DNA of 64,000 nt, from positions 1 to 64,000 of the forward strand of contig NZ_VBWP01000007.1 of NCBI RefSeq assembly GCF_005771635.1. Reading direction: 5' to 3'. The DNA comes from Culicoidibacter larvae (GTDB lineage: Bacteria > Bacillota_I > Bacilli_A > Culicoidibacterales > Culicoidibacteraceae). The position numbers and the translations under genes were made by a program. The notes below the pieces were generated by a model, which searched no databases, was not told the origin of the DNA, and saw only the letters and a program-made list of their open reading frames with translations. Below are positions 24,237 to 33,406 of the stretch, piece by piece; within the stretch, counting starts at the first letter, position 1; each line of letters opens with the position of its first letter.

Positions 24237-24351
24237 TCTAATCGCTCCCGCCTCTGTCCTGATATCACAAGTATAACATTGTTTCCATTGCTTTTATAGA
24301 GGAAGAAAGCTGCACACTGCTGCCAAGCAGCAGTATGCAGTCTCCCTGAAA

Positions 24352-24397
24352 ATAAAAAAGCAACAAGTATAAAGTCAGAAACCTCATATTTGTTGCG
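24352..24397 (-). terminator. Displaced terminator of the tRNA-Tyr operon
   Basis: On the minus strand GCAACAAATAT pairs with (one mismatch) ATACTTGTTGC and is followed by TTTTTTATTTT. It lies just outside the left attachment site. Without the mobile element it would follow tRNA-Tyr directly. A second hairpin, CTGCACACTGCTGC/GCAGCAGTATGCAG (24310-24340), follows. These two hairpins, the att repeat and the arm-type repeat fill the gene-free stretch 24237-24668. Confidence 0.65.
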
Positions 24398-24408
24398 ATT
24401 AATTTTAG

Positions 24409-24462
24409 ATGGTGGGCGGGGACGGATTCGAACCGCCGAACCCTAAGGAGCGGATTTACAGT
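24409..24462. repeat. Left attachment site (attL), 54-bp copy of tRNA-Tyr 3' end
   Basis: Identical over 54 bp to 33322-33375, the 3' part of the intact tRNA-Tyr, then diverges to GCTAGTTTA. It is a tRNA remnant, not a working tRNA. Confidence 0.92.
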
Positions 24463-24555
24463 GCTAGTTTATATAACATTACAGCTACTTTATAGCCACT
24501 TGAGTAAGTTTCAACTTACTTTTATACCTTATAATACCATTTAATATCACTAAGA

Positions 24556-24573
24556 TGTGATAAATTTGTGATA
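24556..24573 (+). repeat. Left arm-type integrase repeat
   Basis: TGTGATAAATTTGTGATA, about 94 bp inside attL. A near copy lies about 86 bp inside the right end (33219-33236). A likely integrase arm-binding site. Confidence 0.5.
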
Positions 24574-24596
24574 ATTATCAACCTGTATTAAAACAA

Positions 24597-24628
24597 TAAA
24601 AGCAACCATATAATTACGGTTGCTTTTG
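24597..24628 (-). terminator. Terminator of the mobile-element cargo operon
   Basis: AAAAGCAACC and GGTTGCTTTT form a 10-bp stem, with T-rich sequence after it on the minus strand, about 40 bp after the last cargo gene. Confidence 0.75.
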
Positions 24629-24668
24629 TAACGTCAAAATTTCTATAAAAAATAAATCAATACTATTT

Positions 24669-25070
24669 TCACTTGTACCCGTCTGTTCTATTCTTATCAA
24701 CTATATATCTTTTCAATCGCTTATTCACCAAAACCCCTAAATAACCACTACCAAAAGCTATTAATGGATATAGCAATACATAAAACCAAATTGATAGCAA
24801 ATATGGGTAGGTTATTAGAAGTAAGATTCCAAAGGCAAACGGTGCGAGTATTGGAATTATCATAATTTTTTTACTATTGATACATCCATAAATAAAAGTT
24901 GCAATAATTGTGTATATTGGAATAAAAAATGTCATTAAGAATGCAAACCCAAACCCAGCACTAGATGACGAAATAAAGCTAAGAGGGGAAAATATACATA
25001 GTGCAATATATCCTAATAGTAAAAACAAAATTGATACACCGGCAATTAATAATGACTTATATTCTTTCAT
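24669..25070 (-). CDS. Hypothetical membrane protein of the mobile element
   Basis: 133 residues with four hydrophobic segments (about 8-30, 38-62, 70-88, 92-115) and a basic C-terminal tail (NKRLKRYIVDKNR). No recognised family. AGAGAGGTAATGAA precedes the ATG. It is the last gene of the cargo strand, 74 bp after the PTS permease gene, and ends just before a terminator. It is A+T-rich like the rest of the cargo. Confidence 0.7.
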   Translation of the reverse strand: MKEYKSLLIAGVSILFLLLGYIALCIFSPLSFISSSSAGFGFAFLMTFFIPIYTIIATFIYGCINSKKIMIIPILAPFAFGILLLITYPYLLSIWFYVLLYPLIAFGSGYLGVLVNKRLKRYIVDKNRTDGYK

Positions 25071-25144
25071 TTCATTACCTCTCTCCCTTTATAAAAATAT
25101 CATCATATATAAAACTATTCAAACACAATCTTCCCACTATCATT

Positions 25145-26488
25145 CTAGCATATGTTAGCATGTATGTCTTGAGAAGAAAGTTGGGCTTGCTCATTATCTA
25201 CAATTAAATATTGATTATCAATTTTTTTAATGAAAGGAAAGTAGATGAGCATTCCTATTAAAATTAATATTACTTGTAAAACACTGCCACTCCATCCGTG
25301 TAACAAAAAACCAGATATTATTGGTGGCGTTGTCCATGGAATTTGAATTCCATTTGTACATGGAACAAAGTTAAAATATATTGCAAAGTAGGAAATAATA
25401 GTGTTAACTAACGGAACTAAAATAAACGGAACCAATAACTTTGGATTCAAAACGATTGGTAGACCAAATAGTATTGGTTCATTAATTCCAAAAATACTAG
25501 GAACAATAGCCAATTTGATTAGCTCCCGCAACTCTTTACTTTTACAAAAAAATATAATTACTAAACAAAGAGACAAAGTAGCACCAGCTCCACCAATCAC
25601 TACTAGCGTTCCCTGAAATTGTCCTGTAACAATATTACTTGGAATTCCCCCTGACTGAAATACTTCAAGGTTCTCAATTGATAGCACACTCAATATTGGA
25701 CCATAAACACTACTCACAATACTTGTTCCATTTATTCCAAGGAACCAAAAAACATGAACAATAAGAACAGATACTAAAACCATAGGCAAAGAACTACCAA
25801 CTATTAGCAATGGTTGCTGTAATAAACTATAAATCAATTGATGCAAAGTTCCAAAAGGTGTCAAGGTCATTAAAAATCCACATATCGTAAATACAATTAT
25901 GATTATTCCACAAGGAACAAGCGCAGTAAACGAATTTGCTACTTCTTTCGGAATATTACTAGAAAGCTTAATAGTAATATTCTTTTCTTTTAAAAACACA
26001 TACAAATTAGTCGTTACTATAGCAATTATGATTGCTAAAAATAATCCGTTAGCACCAATCCACTTTAAAGGGAGACTATTAATTTTATCAACTATACTTC
26101 CCTGATCATCAAAAATTTCTGTAAAAAACGGGGTTACTATCAGAAATGCTACAAGTGCAGTAATTGCTATTTGAAAAGAATCACTCTTCTTTCTATCTGC
26201 TAGCTTAAAGGAAATACTTAACACTGCAAGTAAAGCAATAATATTTGTTATTGCGTTTACAGGAGCACTAAAAATCACTTTCCAATTATCACCTAGAATA
26301 TTACTCATTAATTCATTCCAATTCGGCAATGGGAAATTAATAAACAACAAAAAAAACGAACTAATTATTATTAATGGTGTCGCATATAGAAATCCATCTC
26401 TAATTGACAAGATATAGATATTACTACTTACAACATCGCCACCTTTAGCAATTTGTTGCTTAATCTTTATGAAAAAATTATTCTGCAT
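25145..26488 (-). CDS. PTS lactose/cellobiose-type EIIC permease of the mobile element
   Basis: 447-residue EIIC with the family loop FGINEPILFGLPIVLNP. It is related to the chromosomal EIIC at 22009 but clearly diverged. I chose the ATG at 26488 because GGAGGT lies just upstream; the longer frame to 26512 would include that site. It has no EIIA or EIIB partner on the element, so it would have to borrow the host's. It lies between the glycan genes and a small membrane protein on the same strand. It could import a disaccharide or amino-sugar for the glycan pathway; that is a guess from position. Confidence 0.88.
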   Translation of the reverse strand: MQNNFFIKIKQQIAKGGDVVSSNIYILSIRDGFLYATPLIIISSFFLLFINFPLPNWNELMSNILGDNWKVIFSAPVNAITNIIALLAVLSISFKLADRKKSDSFQIAITALVAFLIVTPFFTEIFDDQGSIVDKINSLPLKWIGANGLFLAIIIAIVTTNLYVFLKEKNITIKLSSNIPKEVANSFTALVPCGIIIIVFTICGFLMTLTPFGTLHQLIYSLLQQPLLIVGSSLPMVLVSVLIVHVFWFLGINGTSIVSSVYGPILSVLSIENLEVFQSGGIPSNIVTGQFQGTLVVIGGAGATLSLCLVIIFFCKSKELRELIKLAIVPSIFGINEPILFGLPIVLNPKLLVPFILVPLVNTIISYFAIYFNFVPCTNGIQIPWTTPPIISGFLLHGWSGSVLQVILILIGMLIYFPFIKKIDNQYLIVDNEQAQLSSQDIHANIC

Positions 26489-26518
26489 ATCCTTACCTCC
26501 AATATTCACCAAAAATTT

Positions 26519-27694
26519 TTAAGATTTATTTTGCTCTCTATAATATGTGAGCACTCTTTTTTTTCTTTTCTTAATCCAATGTGAGTTAGGAAATAATTTA
26601 CTTATAAGATATAAAACTGGAGCATAATTTGGACCAATTATAAGAAAATATTCAATTAGCACTTCTGCGATAACCACAGTTAAAATAACTAATAATATTC
26701 CTACAGTTTTCGAAACACTATATGCAATTGATGAGAAAGAAAAAGCTATACTTATTCCAAAAATAACAACTAAACTTTTTGTAGTAGACTTTGTTGAACG
26801 AAGCAGTCTATGATGCAGATGGTTTGCATCTGGTGCATGTGCTGGTATTTTATTTATGATTCTTCTAAAAAAAGCAAAACAAATATCAAAAATTGGAACA
26901 GCTAAAATTACAATTGGAATCAAAAAGGAAGTAAAGGCTGCCTGTTTATATCCTAATATTGAGATAGCGCCTATCATAAACCCAATAAACTGTGACCCAG
27001 TATCTCCCATAAAAATTTTTGCAGGTGGAAAGTTAAAGGGAAGAAACCCAACAATCCCCCCTGCAAGTATTAAAGATATAAACACTACAATTACTGAATA
27101 ATATGAATTCTCTACCAAACCAATAGTTGCAATTGTAACCAATGTAATTAATGATATCCCTCCTGCTAAACCATCTAATCCATCGCTAAAATTAATTGCA
27201 TTAGTAATACCAATTATCCATAAAACCGTAATTATTTCGGCAATTATCGGTGGCAAAGATATAGATAAAATAATATTAATTTCATTTATAACAAATCCAC
27301 CACGTAACACAATAATTAATGCAGCTATTATTTGAATAATAAATTTATTTTTTGCATTAATAGGGTATATATCATCAACGATACCCATTATCAATATCAA
27401 GAATCCAGCTACTAATAATGATTCCAACTGTACTAATAATTGTATATGTGCATCTACTTGATAGTTACTTGAGATTAAAATATTACTAAAAACTATGTAG
27501 GCTAAAATAAATCCTAAGTATATTGCTAGACCTCCAAGCCTTGGCATAATTTTTTTATGAATCTTTCGTTCATTTTCATTAGGATCATCAATAGCTTTAA
27601 TTTTATTCGCAATTTTTTTTACTGCCGGCACTGCAATATAGCTAATTATTACACTTGTTGCAAATGCTAAAATATATATTATATAATTATTCAT
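26519..27694 (-). CDS. TagO/WecA/MraY-family undecaprenyl-phosphate sugar-1-phosphate transferase
   Basis: 391 residues, about ten TM helices. Members move a sugar-1-phosphate (often GlcNAc-1-P) from UDP-sugar to undecaprenyl phosphate and so start a lipid-linked glycan. Seen: the N-terminal PRLGG loop, NAINFSDGLDGLAGG (metal/substrate Asp), MGDTGSQFIG and the HAPDANHLHHRL loop typical of the WecA/TagO branch. The ATG at 27694 is preceded by GTGAG; a TTG at 27700 is in frame too. It follows the PIG-L gene by 26 bp. Carried on a mobile element, it may compete with or replace the host initiating enzyme. Confidence 0.88.
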   Translation of the reverse strand: MNNYIIYILAFATSVIISYIAVPAVKKIANKIKAIDDPNENERKIHKKIMPRLGGLAIYLGFILAYIVFSNILISSNYQVDAHIQLLVQLESLLVAGFLILIMGIVDDIYPINAKNKFIIQIIAALIIVLRGGFVINEINIILSISLPPIIAEIITVLWIIGITNAINFSDGLDGLAGGISLITLVTIATIGLVENSYYSVIVVFISLILAGGIVGFLPFNFPPAKIFMGDTGSQFIGFMIGAISILGYKQAAFTSFLIPIVILAVPIFDICFAFFRRIINKIPAHAPDANHLHHRLLRSTKSTTKSLVVIFGISIAFSFSSIAYSVSKTVGILLVILTVVIAEVLIEYFLIIGPNYAPVLYLISKLFPNSHWIKKRKKRVLTYYREQNKS

Positions 27695-27720
27695 GTTCAA
27701 CTCACTTTCATAAAATCAAT

Positions 27721-28350
27721 TTATCTTATACTATCTAACAAACATTTCCTAGCATAGAACCCCTCTGCGAACTCAACTCCCGATTTAATTCCATTGAGTT
27801 TGTCTTTCGCGCTAGAATATTCAATTAAATTATGTTTTCTTTTATTGTATTTTTCAAGCTGTGATTCAAAACATGTAAGTACAGCTTTCTTATTTTCACT
27901 ATATTTAGAAATATCTGAATAGCAATTGGGATGAAAATTTATACTAGTCAGTGATTCATACATAAAGTAATTTATACATCTTCTTGAAGCTACTTGGACA
28001 CTTTTACTTAGTTCAACATGGTCTTGATGTGAATCTTCAAAGTAATGAGAAAATACTGTATCAATATTATTTTCAATAATAATCTTTTCAATTGCATCAT
28101 TTAGTCTAGGGGAAGCCTTTATCTCGCCATCTTTTTGTCCTAAAAAAATTACATCTTTAATATTAAGTTTATCACAAGCTTTCTTTTGTTCCTCAATTCG
28201 CACATTCGGGTTCTTCCCCTCCCAATTCTGACCATTAGAAACTATAAGCATCATGACATAATAACCTTTTGTAATAAGTTTAGTTAACGTTCCACCACAT
28301 CCAATCTCAATATCATCTGGATGAGCACCTATTGCTAAAATTCTTTCCAT
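27721..28350 (-). CDS. PIG-L family sugar N-deacetylase
   Basis: 209 residues. The start ILAIGAHPDDIEIGCGG contains the AHPDD zinc motif of the PIG-L/LmbE family, and HYFEDSHQDHVE (near 108) holds the second metal/catalytic histidines. Family members remove acetyl groups from GlcNAc-containing substrates. It is 10 bp from the acetyltransferase gene upstream and just before the TagO-like gene, which fits modification of an amino sugar in a surface glycan. The exact substrate is unknown. Confidence 0.88.
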   Translation of the reverse strand: MERILAIGAHPDDIEIGCGGTLTKLITKGYYVMMLIVSNGQNWEGKNPNVRIEEQKKACDKLNIKDVIFLGQKDGEIKASPRLNDAIEKIIIENNIDTVFSHYFEDSHQDHVELSKSVQVASRRCINYFMYESLTSINFHPNCYSDISKYSENKKAVLTCFESQLEKYNKRKHNLIEYSSAKDKLNGIKSGVEFAEGFYARKCLLDSIR

Positions 28351-28360
28351 TATTCTCTCC

Positions 28361-28867
28361 TTAAACCCTTACTAATTTATTTTTTATTAAATCTTCTCTA
28401 GTGACTTCAAACGTCACAAAATTATTATTTTCAATATTCAATAATTCTTTAAATTTAAATTTTCTATACATATTTATGCTATATTCATTACCTTTGTGTA
28501 CGGAAAACCTTAAGTATGGTAGTCTTGAATTGATAAAAATTTCCACTAAAAGTAATGATAACTTTTTCATTAAGAATAAATTTGATTGATAATTTTCATC
28601 AATATTTAGGTTTTTTATATATACATTATTATATTCTGTATCTTCCATAAAAATAAAATACATGATTATCTGACTATTCTTTTTTATTATTACAATTTTC
28701 GCACCATTATCCAAATTTGATTTTATTGATTCTTCCCATTCACTTTTTAATATTTGCTTTTTTTCATACTCAAACTTCAGATTCTTATCCAATATATATA
28801 ATTGTTCCACATCAATTATTTGTAACCTTTGAAAATCGGCAGTACTTTCCACTCTTAGTTCTTCCAT
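28361..28867 (-). CDS. GNAT-like N-acetyltransferase
   Basis: 168 residues, A+T-rich. The C-terminal half has the GNAT-like pattern (YLRFSVHKGNEYSINMYRKF, the N...Y..F end of the fold); the acetyl-CoA loop is weak. It might re-acetylate or differently acylate the amino group freed by the neighbouring deacetylase. Family placement is moderately sure, function is inferred from the operon. Confidence 0.6.
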   Translation of the reverse strand: MEELRVESTADFQRLQIIDVEQLYILDKNLKFEYEKKQILKSEWEESIKSNLDNGAKIVIIKKNSQIIMYFIFMEDTEYNNVYIKNLNIDENYQSNLFLMKKLSLLLVEIFINSRLPYLRFSVHKGNEYSINMYRKFKFKELLNIENNNFVTFEVTREDLIKNKLVRV

Positions 28868-28881
28868 TTAACTTCTCCCCT

Positions 28882-29598
28882 TTAAACATTTGTATTTATA
28901 ACGCTCGTTTGTAAATATTTTTTTAAGCTTTCAAAGCCGAATCTTGCAATAAAATCAATATATGATATCTTATTCCAATCTAAATCTTCGGCACAATTAG
29001 GGCATGTCCAAGGATGCCAATACAGCGTCACCTCATTGTTTGCAAACTCACCAATATCCATATAATTTTTCCCACCTAACCCAGATAAGTAATTTTTATA
29101 CCCAAGCTTCTTACATATATTAATGAGCCTTAAAGTACTTTTTTCTTTAATTCCTAGATCAGATGAATAACTTATATCTATATTAATACCTAAATACTTA
29201 AATAATTCCAGCGTTGAAGCAACTGAAAAATCAGAAATATTACTGTACTCTTTCTTGCTAATTAAAATATTTATAAACTTTAGTAGTTCATCATAATAGT
29301 CAGATTCTGAATAAAGATATGTTAAGCTTCCTTTTAGCTTTGAAATAAATGTCTGATAATCAGAGAATTGCAACTCATTGATATTCTGTATTTTTCTTGT
29401 ATTTTTAATACTAGCAGTTAACCAATAAACCTGATGCGGATTTGTCAGATGCCTAATCTTTACTCTATTTTGAACATCATTTCTTACAAATTGTACGTCA
29501 TCTAAAATATTCAAGTGGTTTGAAATAGCTATCTTATTTAAAACTTTTATGTTTGGAAATAAATTTGGTTGGTGAATTGCTAAAATATCTTCTCTCAT
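28882..29598 (-). CDS. WbqC-family protein
   Basis: 238 residues. The N-terminal LAIHQPNLFPN and DDVQFVRNDVQNR, and later YLSGLGGKNYMD, are hallmarks of the WbqC family, found mostly in O-antigen and surface-polysaccharide gene clusters. Its chemistry is not settled. There are two Cys close together (WTCPNCAED, near 202). It is in the same operon as the glycosyltransferase (18 bp) and acetyltransferase. Confidence 0.8.
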   Translation of the reverse strand: MREDILAIHQPNLFPNIKVLNKIAISNHLNILDDVQFVRNDVQNRVKIRHLTNPHQVYWLTASIKNTRKIQNINELQFSDYQTFISKLKGSLTYLYSESDYYDELLKFINILISKKEYSNISDFSVASTLELFKYLGINIDISYSSDLGIKEKSTLRLINICKKLGYKNYLSGLGGKNYMDIGEFANNEVTLYWHPWTCPNCAEDLDWNKISYIDFIARFGFESLKKYLQTSVINTNV

Positions 29599-29616
29599 AC
29601 TATATTTTTCCCTTCT

Positions 29617-30480
29617 TTATTTTTCAAGCAATAATTTATTTAGTTGCCAAGGACCAACTTTATGATAAAGTTCAACTTCACTTATTGGGTATTTCGTAAT
29701 CCTTCTATTTCTTCCTAATTCAGCCATAAATTCTAGTTGAGTTGGTGTATATGTATTTATGAATTTTTCATGCGGATAATGAATTGTAAGAGCCTTTTTA
29801 TTAACTCTGATGGAATATCCTTTAGTATAAGCTGACAAAGCAAAATCTGTGTCTTCGCCACCATATTCTGTATACCATTCGTCAAATCCACCGATAGTGT
29901 GAAAATTTTTATACGATACACTGAAACAAGCTGTCCAAAATAATGCCCACGGTGCCGGCCACTTTGTTAAGTCATCCCCTATGTCACTGTATACAACTTC
30001 CCTCATATCATTAATTGATAAATCTTTTAATTTTTTTATACTCTCTTCTAAATTATTTAAATCAACAACTTCTTTTATTACCTTTTCATTTTCATTATTT
30101 TTATCAAAACCCAACACATATGCTAAACAAAGGTCGTCATAATTAAGAATATGCTGATACATCTGGATACCAAGCTTTGCATCCGCAATTATACCACTAT
30201 CTAAAAATATCAATACTTCCCCTTCTGCCACTTTAGCCCCAAGATTTCTAGCCCGACCAATTCTCACTCTTCTCTTCTTTTGGTAAATATATTTTATATT
30301 CAAAAACTCCCAATTTTTTACTAAATCTGCTGTATTATCTGTTGAACCATCATCAACAACAATGATTTCATATTCACCTAACTGTAAATCTATCTGTTTC
30401 ATCAAACTCAATAGCGTTTTTTTCAATAGCTCTTCCCTATTATAAGTAGGTATAATAAATGACACTTTATAACTAGACAT
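29617..30480 (-). CDS. Family 2 glycosyltransferase
   Basis: 287 residues, GT-A fold. FIIPTYNREE at the start, IVVDDGSTD (near 40), a metal-site-like IFLDSG (near 91) and GGFDEWYTEYGGEDTDFAL (near 200, acceptor/catalytic region as in GT2/GT7-C enzymes). It would add a sugar to the lipid-linked acceptor made by the TagO-like protein. It is the first gene of the cargo operon, behind promoter 30516-30544, with AGGAGAG before the ATG. Confidence 0.88.
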   Translation of the reverse strand: MSSYKVSFIIPTYNREELLKKTLLSLMKQIDLQLGEYEIIVVDDGSTDNTADLVKNWEFLNIKYIYQKKRRVRIGRARNLGAKVAEGEVLIFLDSGIIADAKLGIQMYQHILNYDDLCLAYVLGFDKNNENEKVIKEVVDLNNLEESIKKLKDLSINDMREVVYSDIGDDLTKWPAPWALFWTACFSVSYKNFHTIGGFDEWYTEYGGEDTDFALSAYTKGYSIRVNKKALTIHYPHEKFINTYTPTQLEFMAELGRNRRITKYPISEVELYHKVGPWQLNKLLLEK

Positions 30481-30515
30481 TACTTTATCTCTCCTATTTT
30501 AAATATACATTTTTC

Positions 30516-30544
30516 ACATTATCAAGAAACCGTTCTCATGTCAA
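30516..30544 (-). promoter_or_regulatory. Promoter of the cargo glycan operon
   Basis: Minus strand TTGACA (30539-30544), 17-base spacer, TAATGT (30516-30521). The 240-bp gap to the plus-strand mobility genes also holds an extended -10 (TGTTATACT, 30651-30664 area) and a CCAAAGG/CCTTTGG hairpin at 30672-30698 for the opposite unit. Confidence 0.65.
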
Positions 30545-30720
30545 TGAGTAACAGAAAATATGCGTAAACAAATGTTTTTTTCACTATAAAACTTTTTCAT
30601 TATAATTAGTGACTAATACTAGTCTCAAACCTGACAACTTATCCTACTTTTATCATGTTATACTAAGTATCCAAAGGAATAACTGATATACCTTTGGAGA
30701 AAGGAGTGCGGTGATGTAAT

Positions 30721-30972
30721 TTGAATCATTTGAACCTAGTAACAATGACTAAAGATGATTTAATCAACCTTGGCTATTCCCCTGCTTCTAGTTCAGCGAT
30801 TATTCGCCAAGCTAAAGCATACATGGTCAACCTTGGATTTGAATATTATAATAATCGCCGATTAGGGAGAGTTCCTTCATCGGCGATTTGTGCTATCCTC
30901 GGCATTGGGTTGGAACAACTTTGTTCATCATCTACTAATACCAGTACATCTTCTAGTATTACAACTGGCTAA
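30721..30972 (+). CDS. DUF3173 family small protein (putative excisionase/regulator)
   Basis: 83 residues or fewer. The core TKDDLINLGY...AIIRQAKAYM and RLGRVPSSAI is the DUF3173 pattern, seen in integrative elements beside rep and integrase genes and taken to act like an excisionase. The frame opens with TTG at 30721; an ATG at 30745 would give a shorter protein. AAAGGAG lies 14 bp before the TTG, so the start is unsure. The C-terminus is Ser/Thr-rich. Confidence 0.75.
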   Translation: MNHLNLVTMTKDDLINLGYSPASSSAIIRQAKAYMVNLGFEYYNNRRLGRVPSSAICAILGIGLEQLCSSSTNTSTSSSITTG

Positions 30973-31049
30973 TTATCTGTATAACAGTGTCGGTAATTGT
31001 ACCGATAATAATATTGGGAAAGGAGATTGCTTGTATGTGTCTATTGTTC

Positions 31050-31136
31050 GGCACCCGTAGCGTGCTTTCCGCTTGCGGAAGTAGCACAGCTTTCGGAGTG
31101 CCTGCAAGGAAACACAGGCGGAGCCTGTGTCCTTGC
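31050..31136 (+). other. Two GC-rich hairpins, possible replication or transfer origin
   Basis: Hairpin 1: GGCAC...GTGCC (31050-31102) enclosing GTGC-TTTCCGC-TT-GCGGAA-...GCAC. Hairpin 2: GCAAGGA..CACAGGC / GCCTGTGTCCTTGC (31104-31136). They are far more GC-rich than their surroundings and lie between DUF3173 and the Rep start. HUH Rep proteins nick next to such hairpins, so this is the best candidate for the element's origin. Not coding: the frame through it lacks a ribosome binding site. Confidence 0.5.
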
Positions 31137-31173
31137 TCCTATACTTGATTATAAGATACACATTACAAGAAAA

Positions 31174-31944
31174 ATGAATATGCAGAAAAAAGCAGTAGTT
31201 GTAAAAACAAGAAAAACAGTCAGTGGTGATTATGTAGAATTATTTCAATATTATGTTCCGTATCTATTAGGCGGAAGTAGCAAAAACGGCAGTTCATCAG
31301 GAAAATTAAAAAGTGAACAGAAAATATTTGAAGAACGTATTTTAAGTGAACGCTTATCTGCAAGGCGAGCTAAAAATCAATTAGAACGATTAATCCTCTG
31401 CAACATAGGTCAATATCATACATCAGATAAATTCTTAACTGTTACATTTGCAGAAAATATCCAAGACAGAGAAATAGCCAATTACCTCTTTATGAAATTT
31501 ATCCAGAGACTTCGCTATCATTTTGGAACTTTTGAATATTTAGCAGTTCCCGAATTACAAAATAGAGGGGCTATTCACTATCATATATTACTTTTTGGTT
31601 TACCCTTTATCAGCAAAGACCATTTAGCTGATATTTGGAAACACGGATATATCAAAATAAACGCTGTAGAGCGTTACTATAATCTTGCTCATTACATTGC
31701 GAAATATATTAATAAGGACTTTGAAACAGGCAGAAAAAAGGCGCAGAAACGATATATGAGTAGCAGAGGACTGAAAAAACCAATTATTGAGTACAATATT
31801 GATCTTGAAGTTGAAAAACAGAACGGAATTATTTTATATGAAGATACATTTGATACTGAACATGCAGGTGTGATTCGTTTGATTAAATTAAAAAGAGAGC
31901 CAACTCACCAAATAGTTAACTCTCAAAAACATGAAAAAATATAA
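31174..31944 (+). CDS. HUH-type rolling-circle replication initiator
   Basis: 256 residues from the ATG at 31174 (a longer frame from 31027 runs through the hairpins and is unlikely to be used). KFLTVTFAEN (motif 1), the metal-binding HUH motif IHYHILLFG (near 130) and the tyrosine motif AHYIAKYINKD (near 173) define a Rep nuclease. It would nick the excised circle and start rolling-circle replication, and may double as a relaxase for mobilisation. A hairpin (TAAGCTAAG/CTTAGCTTA) after the gene may be its terminator. Confidence 0.85.
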   Translation: MNMQKKAVVVKTRKTVSGDYVELFQYYVPYLLGGSSKNGSSSGKLKSEQKIFEERILSERLSARRAKNQLERLILCNIGQYHTSDKFLTVTFAENIQDREIANYLFMKFIQRLRYHFGTFEYLAVPELQNRGAIHYHILLFGLPFISKDHLADIWKHGYIKINAVERYYNLAHYIAKYINKDFETGRKKAQKRYMSSRGLKKPIIEYNIDLEVEKQNGIILYEDTFDTEHAGVIRLIKLKREPTHQIVNSQKHEKI

Positions 31945-32090
31945 ATGTCTAAGCTAAGAAAAGTTGAAGAATTCCCTTAGCTTACTTATAAATATACCAT
32001 ACTTTTATCCATTTTAAAAATACTTATTATTTCATTTACAATTGTTTTATATTATAATGATACTGTTTTAGTACAGGGAAAGGAGTACAA

Positions 32091-33182
32091 TTGAATATAA
32101 AAAGACATGACAACGGCTCATATTACTTTTCCATTTCCTTAGGTGTTAATCCATTGAATGGAAAGCGCAAGCAAACGATGCGCTCTGGCTTCAAAACTAA
32201 GCGTGAGGCGCAGAATTGTTATATAGAACTAAAAGCCAAGGCTTATAATAAACCTGAACTTGTGAAAGCAACTTTTGACTTTCAACAGTTAATCCACGAT
32301 TTTCTACACACACATAAAAAGAAAGTTCGAACTTCAACTTATAATGACAATGAAAGTAAAATCAATAGACACATTGCTTCATACTTCGAAAAAGCAATTC
32401 CTGATAAGTTGACCTTTGATGATGTTGAAGCCTTTCAACAAGTGTTAATGAACAAAAGCTTATCTGCGAATACCGTGAATAAAATCATCTTGTTGTTGAA
32501 ACAAATGTATGAACACGCTATTACTCATCATAAACTGGAATACAATCCTTGTGAGCATATAGTACCTTTAAGTGTTGACAAACGAATTATGAAAATTTGG
32601 ACACCACAACAATTTGATATATTTATTACGGCGCTATCCAAAAAGGAAAACATTCAAGATATTTTGTATTTTACAATGGCTTATGCGACTGGTGCCAGAC
32701 GTTCAGAGTTACTCGCCTGTTCATTTGACGATATTGATTTTCATTTAAAGCAATGGCGGATTCACAGAACATTACAATGGGATAAAAAGTTAAAACAGTT
32801 TTATTTCAGTGATACCAAAAATCAAAGTAGCAGACGGACAATAACCTTACCAGATAAAGTACTGACTATGTTGAAACAAGTTCAAGCTGAATATCCAAAT
32901 AACTTACACCAATTAGTATTTGCGAATCCTTTTGATTTTCCTCCGATGCGTCATTATCAAGTATTACTTGATAAGTATATTAAAGAAACAAAGCTAGAGC
33001 CAATCCGTTTTCATGATTTTAGACATTCTCATGCATCATTATTAATTCACTTGCGACAAAGCGAGTTAGTCCTAAAAGAACGTTTAGGACATTCTAGTAT
33101 CAAAACAACGTATGATGTTTACGGTCATTTATTCCCTAATCAGCAACATGAATTAGCTCAATCTTTGAATGAACTATTATAA
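32091..33182 (+). CDS. int: Tyrosine-family integrase
   Basis: 363 residues, full length. N-terminal AP2/arm-binding-type region (GSYYFSISLGVNPLNGKRKQ), SAM-like core-binding domain about 60-165, catalytic domain with Arg in ATGARRSEL (near 205), HDFRHSHAS (His and Arg near 310), LGHSSIKTTYDVYGHL (His and Tyr near 335-345). The start is TTG at 32091, 5 bp after AAAGGAG. It lies 140 bp from attR and is transcribed towards tRNA-Tyr. It inserts and excises the element. Confidence 0.95.
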   Translation: MNIKRHDNGSYYFSISLGVNPLNGKRKQTMRSGFKTKREAQNCYIELKAKAYNKPELVKATFDFQQLIHDFLHTHKKKVRTSTYNDNESKINRHIASYFEKAIPDKLTFDDVEAFQQVLMNKSLSANTVNKIILLLKQMYEHAITHHKLEYNPCEHIVPLSVDKRIMKIWTPQQFDIFITALSKKENIQDILYFTMAYATGARRSELLACSFDDIDFHLKQWRIHRTLQWDKKLKQFYFSDTKNQSSRRTITLPDKVLTMLKQVQAEYPNNLHQLVFANPFDFPPMRHYQVLLDKYIKETKLEPIRFHDFRHSHASLLIHLRQSELVLKERLGHSSIKTTYDVYGHLFPNQQHELAQSLNELL

Positions 33183-33218
33183 ATAACATTCTTTTTATCA
33201 CAACAAAGTTATTTCAAG

Positions 33219-33236
33219 TGTGATAAAATGTGATAG
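33219..33236 (+). repeat. Right arm-type integrase repeat
   Basis: TGTGATAAAATGTGATAG, matching the left arm site in sequence, direction and distance from the att core. A reverse single copy TTTATCACA is at 33194-33202. Confidence 0.5.
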
Positions 33237-33321
33237 ATTTGAGCATCAAACTATTTTACTCAAAAGAAAAAAGCAGTTACTCAATCAGCGTTTAGCCTTA
33301 TGGTTACTGCACTATCATCAC

Positions 33322-33375
33322 ATGGTGGGCGGGGACGGATTCGAACCGCCGAACCCTAAGGAGCGGATTTACAGT
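33322..33375. repeat. Right attachment site (attR) within tRNA-Tyr
   Basis: 54 bp identical to 24409-24462. It covers the 3' half of tRNA-Tyr from the anticodon loop through CCA, so the element restores the gene it entered. Confidence 0.92.
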
Positions 33376-33406
33376 CCGCCGCGTTTAGCCACTTCGCTAC
33401 CCGCCC
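33323..33406 (-). tRNA. tRNA-Tyr (GTA)
   Basis: Acceptor GGGCGGG/CCCGCCC, anticodon GTA, long variable arm, A73 and encoded CCA. It is the last tRNA of the cluster and the insertion target of the mobile element. Confidence 0.95.

Follow-up and report, generated by a model that had tools for sequence, protein, structure and literature searches.

An 8.9-kb element in a tRNA-Tyr gene of Culicoidibacter larvae with a rolling-circle Rep, a probable nick origin and a cargo operon of glycan-related families

Between an intact tRNA-Tyr gene and an orphan copy of its 3' part, the genome of Culicoidibacter larvae holds 8.9 kb of low-G+C DNA, and this locus raises the question of what kind of element entered there, how it could move and what its cargo might provide. 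The analysis was conducted on a 64,000-nt stretch of contig NZ_VBWP01000007.1 (hereafter, the window), in which the element spans 24409-33375. As a whole explanation, we consider it quite probable that the locus is an integrated element, namely an integrative and mobilizable element (IME) or an integrative rolling-circle element, with a cargo operon of the lipid-linked-glycan type. Of most interest were the conservation of the origin motif and the recurrence of the tRNA-linked layout across phyla.

The boundaries of the element were determined by direct-repeat comparison. A first-pass annotation had proposed perfect 54-bp direct repeats and an element of about 8.9 kb, and identical (100%) repeats offset by 8913 bp were indeed recovered at 24409-24462 and 33322-33375, exactly where it had placed them. 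The right repeat corresponds to tRNA positions 32-84, beginning in the anticodon loop and running through to CCA; such a 3' footprint is usual for a tyrosine integrase acting at a tRNA gene. When the outer flanks were joined in silico, a single intact tRNA-Tyr was obtained, followed within approximately 10 nt by a hairpin-plus-T-run terminator. As a terminator lies directly beyond the left copy and the tRNA was rebuilt, the order before insertion was the tRNA array, tRNA-Tyr and the terminator, and the element entered between the last two. The G+C content of the element genes was 23-34% (39% for DUF3173) versus 35-41% for the flanking genes. A third genomic match to the repeat (56 bp) was considered as another element and rejected, because it is a second tRNA-Tyr of identical sequence that is still free. 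This gene lies near 87.7 kb of the contig, is followed at once by a hairpin and T-run of its own and carries no element at this end. Beside this second gene (L005:3098-4584), a small secreted metalloprotease-like protein (HExxH) and another secreted protein are encoded.

The mobility module occupies 30.7-33.2 kb, where DUF3173, an HUH Rep of the ORF2/G2P family and a tyrosine integrase are encoded on the plus strand; these three had been named in the first-pass annotation and were verified by Pfam. A literature search on DUF3173 as an excisionase yielded nothing usable. The HYH motif and the Tyr/Lys (Tyr-Lys) motif of the Rep proved invariant when it was aligned with relatives from plasmids, Enterococcus and inoviruses. 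In the alignment, the conserved part of Rep started near 31174, so that some non-coding DNA is probably contained in the long frame from the TTG codon at 31027. The start codon itself is uncertain, the ribosome-binding site being good before 31027 but weak before 31174.

The sequence ACTTGATTATA lies directly 3' of two hairpins upstream of this conserved part, and the origin region (31050-31157) thereby includes ACTTG^ATTATA, the caret marking the predicted cut. Of 79 relatives, 48 had the motif ACTTGATW upstream of Rep and on its strand; the motif occurred in 2.0 on average and in 5 at most after shuffling, and in 2 on the opposite strand. Double-strand origins of the pC194 type are known to be nicked at CTTGATA (PMC10378824). 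In the relatives, too, strong hairpins were common upstream of Rep. The nick site of phiX174 is similar. Considering the hairpins, the recurrent ACTTGATW and the pC194-type and phiX174 nick sites, a nick between 31147 and 31148 was therefore predicted. Judged from its sequence, the region 31050-31157 is probably the nick origin of Rep. The hairpin sequence itself was matched no more than by chance in plasmids and not at all in IMG/VR, and elsewhere in the genome only a 17-bp match was found; only the hairpin structure and the ACTTGAT motif are shared with relatives, not the hairpin sequence. A short frame (MCLLFGTRSVLSACGSS...) at 31035-31150 overlaps both hairpins and ends at the predicted nick; it may encode a leader peptide or be due to chance.

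To place this vehicle, a Rep-alignment scan of 84,980 named genomes was performed and yielded 80 loci, many of them from Patescibacteria, Clostridia and Enterococcus; these loci are not independent of one another, and HYH-bearing Reps are favoured by the scan pattern. Among the 56 loci with at least 3 kb of sequence downstream of Rep, a minus-strand tRNA gene lay within 3 kb downstream in 34 and a tRNA gene within 3 kb upstream in none, and a same-strand integrase, sought with a profile built for this analysis, followed Rep in 29. The asymmetry of tRNA genes was clear despite the non-independence of the loci and the selection for HYH. Several of the relatives' elements, 2.6-7.1 kb long, were bounded by exact tRNA 3'-end repeats of 19-59 bp. 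These small elements of Clostridia, Bacilli and Patescibacteria (e.g., L066, L086, L087 and L127) resemble the present one in having Rep and then the integrase on one strand, in reaching up to the 3' end of a tRNA gene on the opposite strand and in their tRNA-derived repeats, with cargo often beyond Rep on the opposite strand. However, they are shorter than the 8.9 kb found here and carry other cargo, such as DpnII restriction-modification, dihydrofolate reductase and a TipAS regulator. In a Blautia Rep-Int element, the dihydrofolate reductase gene sits at the distal end (L127:6250-6744), and a Falkowbacterium element encodes a DpnII-type restriction enzyme with its methylase (L087:4084-5866).

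Other modules were also observed, arranged as DUF961-Rep-DUF3173-Int in Enterococcus, DUF961-TcpA-Rep-DUF3173-Int in Neobacillus and TcpA-Rep-HTH-Int in genome G010, where the DUF961 and helix-turn-helix (HTH) labels were assigned by reading the sequences. Enterococcus faecium pNUITM-V19_1 (AP031256, L043) and Neobacillus sp. (L088) share with the present element the Rep, DUF3173 and tyrosine integrase, with hairpins and/or the AACTTGAT motif before Rep, but differ in having DUF961 (in Neobacillus also TcpA), the order Rep-DUF3173-Int and different cargo. In G010, a second IME type is inserted beside guaA (L034, G010:C12); its order, assigned by reading, is Int-DUF3173-TcpA-Rep with a helicase-like domain. 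Compared with pC194 and phiX174-type origins, the candidate nick sequence CTTG^AT beside a hairpin and 5' of rep is the same, whereas the Rep here belongs to the ORF2/G2P family (PF23343) and not to Rep_1 (PF01446). We tentatively suggest, with somewhat less than even confidence, that integrative rolling-circle elements targeting tRNA genes form a single family across phyla, extending from Patescibacteria to Enterococcus and Culicoidibacter. Its members would combine an ORF2/G2P-type Rep with a pC194/phiX174-like origin (hairpin and ACTTG^ATW) and act as small, general-purpose vehicles for cargo; in the present case, the vehicle would have become an island for glycan modification.

Based on the att repeats, the integrase, DUF3173 and Rep, the origin motif and the Rep-Int-tRNA layout, the vehicle is of a known and widespread kind, namely an IME with a rolling-circle-type relaxase or an integrative rolling-circle plasmid. 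Streptococcal IMEs with rolling-circle-type relaxases have been reviewed (PMC5704250). In the passages of Coluzzi et al. (2017, PMC5357655) drawn on here, streptococcal IMEs with such relaxases show the compact order relaxase-excisionase-integrase, and TcpA precedes the compact module in 83 of 118, hence being optional. The Rel_PHA00330-type IMEs of those passages resemble the present element in combining a tyrosine integrase and a small accessory gene with a rolling-circle Rep that is the putative relaxase, in their compact module and in their integration in tRNA 3' ends; the present element differs in its order DUF3173-Rep-Int and its lack of TcpA. tRNA-Tyr is not among the integration sites that the same passages name for streptococcal IMEs. 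Of the features expected of an IME, an own integrase, DUF3173 and the 54-bp tRNA-Tyr repeats were found, and no mating-pair formation gene was identified: among open frames of at least 60 amino acids between the repeats, the assigned genes included no type IV secretion component. For a relaxase and/or an origin of transfer (oriT) that could exploit the transfer machinery of a helper, the HUH Rep, from a family that is found with TcpA elsewhere, and the candidate nick site are putative counterparts. No defence gene was found by PADLOC, and single-protein scans of IMG/VR with the integrase and Rep gave no matches.

The cargo comprises seven minus-strand genes separated by gaps of 18, 14, 10, 20, 6 and 74 bp, with one promoter-like site and one terminator, and likely forms one operon. 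Its order is family 2 glycosyltransferase (GT2), WbqC, GNAT-like protein, PIG-L, TagO/WecA-like transferase, phosphotransferase system (PTS) EIIC and a small membrane protein. The TagO/WecA-like initiator, glycosyltransferase, deacetylase and WbqC of the first-pass annotation were confirmed by Pfam, whereas its acetyltransferase was represented only by a weak GNAT match; the EIIC (25145-26512) and the small membrane protein (24669-25070) were not named in it. As TagO and GT2 are present, a lipid-linked glycan is a likely product, and the likeliest outcome suggested by the families would be a lipid-linked glycan or a glycan modification dependent on host export. Among relatives, two WbqC genes lie within a capsule-type locus of a genome of the same class (G407), and a glycan island on a viral contig has PIG-L and WbqC near each other. 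This cargo was found on no other vehicle searched, and it is unusual among the examined relatives of the vehicle. The same genes at this site in distant relatives without att repeats had been named as an observation that would speak against the element, and this was partly tested using WbqC: a single-sequence query (E≤1e-10) found it in none of the 392 genomes sampled from the phylum, and a profile search detected only distant relatives in three other genomes of the class.

Taken together with the cargo, the integrated element could work as follows. The integrase, probably steered by DUF3173, would recombine the att site of the element with the 3' part of tRNA-Tyr, restoring the tRNA. The excised circle would be nicked by Rep at ACTTG^ATTATA, 3' of the two hairpins, and rolling-circle replication from this nick would maintain the circle; if a conjugative helper is present, the same nick could start transfer. 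In the host, the TagO-like enzyme would place a sugar phosphate of the N-acetylglucosamine type onto undecaprenyl phosphate, and GT2 would add a sugar. PIG-L would then remove an N-acetyl group to free an amine on the sugar, and the GNAT-like protein and/or WbqC might load this amine with another group. The product would most likely be a host-exported lipid-linked glycan or a glycan decoration.

Several observations weigh against this explanation. No TcpA/FtsK coupling protein was found in the element, and in the whole genome no TcpA-type protein was detected, the search giving one full-length FtsK-type match and one below the cut-off. Moreover, the order DUF3173-Rep-Int differs from the usual Rep-DUF3173-Int. 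On the cargo side, no EIIA or EIIB partner for the EIIC was found in the element, no flippase, polymerase or ABC (ATP-binding cassette) exporter was found among the seven genes, and the closest WbqC-GNAT-PIG-L arrangement found lies in a non-ribosomal peptide synthetase (NRPS) cluster.

Regarding the vehicle, Rep might serve to initiate replication and not act as a relaxase. An integrative rolling-circle plasmid without mobilization was considered as a possible, if rather doubtful, alternative; here the sole function of Rep would be to replicate the excised circle, and the element would spread through transformation, transduction or chance. In line with this alternative, small plasmids (pGTG5 and others) and inovirus/microvirus phages carry the closest named Reps found, TcpA is lacking in the element, and the origin resembles pC194-type double-strand origins with their nick CTTGATA (PMC10378824). 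However, members of this Rep family are accompanied by TcpA and DUF961 in Neobacillus and by a TcpA-like protein in G010, which points to conjugative mobilization, and a conjugative-type contig is present in the same genome. This contig (C15; G000:C15, L166 and L167; 36.9 kb) encodes VirD4/TraG, a MobL relaxase, an actin-like segregation protein related to ParM, ParA, an M23 peptidase, a VirB4-like frame recognized by reading and a large cell-wall fibre-like protein. It is probably a conjugative plasmid or an integrative and conjugative element, or a fragment of one, and a role as helper for the element is possible. Beside its parA (L166:1592-2138), a short-repeat array reads as KLNIKVDI-type units in one direction and ILSFISTF in the other; it could be an iteron or centromere array. 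Of the IME-like element in tRNA-Tyr that had been proposed, the integrated element is well supported by the att repeats, integrase, DUF3173, HUH Rep, candidate nick site and recurring Rep-Int-tRNA layout, while mobilization by a helper is weakened by the missing coupling protein and the possible role of Rep in replication.

The second alternative concerns the cargo, which might make a small secreted glycoconjugate or metabolite instead of a surface polysaccharide; we regard this as unlikely. It draws on Virgibacillus halodenitrificans plasmid NZ_CP033050, in which WbqC (41%), a GNAT-like protein (23%) and PIG-L (48%) occur in the same order as in the cargo, and this one locus provided the best plasmid match of both WbqC and PIG-L. 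The neighbours of the trio are NRPS, phosphopantetheinyl transferase, ATP-grasp and major facilitator superfamily (MFS) genes. PIG-L also resembles the bacillithiol deacetylase BshB1. However, while the families and their order are the same, the trio is set among NRPS, ATP-grasp and MFS genes there and with GT2, TagO and EIIC here. The operon lacks an NRPS, an ATP-grasp gene and an exporter and has a TagO-type lipid-linked initiator, and the same-class and viral-contig relatives lie in polysaccharide loci. Compared with a complete surface polysaccharide locus (Wzx/Wzy or ABC-dependent), the initiating polyprenyl-phosphate transferase is present (PF00953), and a flippase with a polymerase or an ABC exporter is absent. 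The idea that the element could change the host's surface polysaccharide on arrival is therefore backed by the initiator, glycosyltransferase and modifying enzymes and is tempered by the missing flippase, polymerase and exporter and by the trio in the NRPS cluster; with neither flippase nor polymerase, we infer it as a plausible effect only.

A dead remnant, in which the element is unable to excise, was judged improbable: only a single copy was found, which would agree with it, but the mobility and cargo genes are all intact frames and the att copies are still identical over 54 bp. An integrated filamentous phage (inovirus) or its satellite is very improbable and was already disfavoured, since despite a Rep of the ORF2/G2P family 40% identical to an inovirus replication protein, no Zot/pI ATPase, coat or assembly gene was found in the 8.9 kb (Pfam on ten genes, PHROGs on eight), and PHROGs matched only Rep, the integrase, GT2 and weak metabolic entries.

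If the cargo functions in the inferred way, a single integration could add a glycan modification to a cell, bearing on phage adsorption and recognition by other cells. As the boundaries are clean and the predicted nick site is precise to the base, excision, nicking and mobilization are directly testable. The recurring origin motif also provides a simple marker for small elements easily overlooked in genome annotation. The coordinates are summarized in Table 1.

Table 1. Features of the element and its host site (positions in the window).
Feature	Position	Strand	Basis or remark
Probable original terminator of the tRNA array (host DNA), now separated from tRNA-Tyr by the element	24345-24408	-	RNA fold -16.3 kcal/mol, z -5.5, then TTTTTT
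att repeat distal to the tRNA, orphan 3' part of tRNA-Tyr	24409-24462	-	Identical to 33322-33375; alone not a tRNA
Probable terminator of cargo operon	24598-24627	-	13-bp stem, T-rich tail
Small membrane protein, 133 amino acids	24669-25070	-	No family match
PTS EIIC, lactose/cellobiose family, full-length, ChbC-related	25145-26512	-	PF02378 1e-51; TIGR00410 357 bits
TagO/WecA-type polyprenyl-phosphate sugar-1-phosphate transferase	26519-27700	-	PF00953 2.5e-42; 50% identical to host copy on contig C11
PIG-L/LmbE deacetylase, BshB1-like	27721-28350	-	PF02585 3e-24; PDB 2ixd 3e-17; HPDD and HxDH motifs present
GNAT-like acyltransferase, weak match	28361-28867	-	TIGR01575 7e-4; PF00583 5e-3
WbqC family protein	28882-29598	-	PF08889 2e-39
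Family 2 glycosyltransferase, first gene of operon	29617-30480	-	PF00535 4e-27; Glyco_transf_7C
Promoter-like site of cargo operon, TTGAGA-18-TATAAT	30599-30628	-	Consensus scan, 11/12 positions; sequence match alone
DUF3173, probable excisionase or directionality factor	30721-30972	+	PF11372 1e-22; between Rep and Int in relatives
Two G+C-rich hairpins, candidate origin (double-strand origin, dso, or oriT)	31050-31137	+	DNA fold -32.7 kcal/mol, z -7.4; 0/200 shuffles as good
Candidate nick site ACTTG^ATT	31143-31150	+	Predicted cut between 31147 and 31148; motif recurs upstream of Rep
HUH rolling-circle Rep, putative non-canonical relaxase	31174-31944	+	PF23343 3e-21; open frame from TTG 31027, conserved part from ~31174
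Tyrosine integrase with Arm-DNA-bind_4	32091-33182	+	PF00589 5e-20; PF14657 3e-12
att repeat within intact tRNA-Tyr	33322-33375	-	Direct-repeat comparison, tRNA calls
tRNA-Tyr (GTA), target, intact; last of eight-tRNA array	33323-33406	-	ARAGORN and Rfam

Individual cargo proteins were further compared with known families and structures. The predicted structure of WbqC (pLDDT 77) had no convincing match among solved structures, neither WbqC nor the GNAT-like protein had a sequence match among them, and a literature search on WbqC function gave nothing usable. The structure model of the GNAT-like protein (pLDDT 49) was too poor and was left unused. When the EIIC was aligned to ChbC (PDB 3qnq), Glu334 was kept and His250 was replaced by Asn. 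This replacement was considered as a sign of lost PTS function and dropped, as 2 of 18 other EIICs of the genome share the Asn. The presence of approximately 18 other EIICs suggests that EIIA and EIIB partners could be borrowed. With approximately 19 EIICs of the lactose/cellobiose type in 2.5 Mb, the genome holds an unusually large beta-glucoside PTS set.

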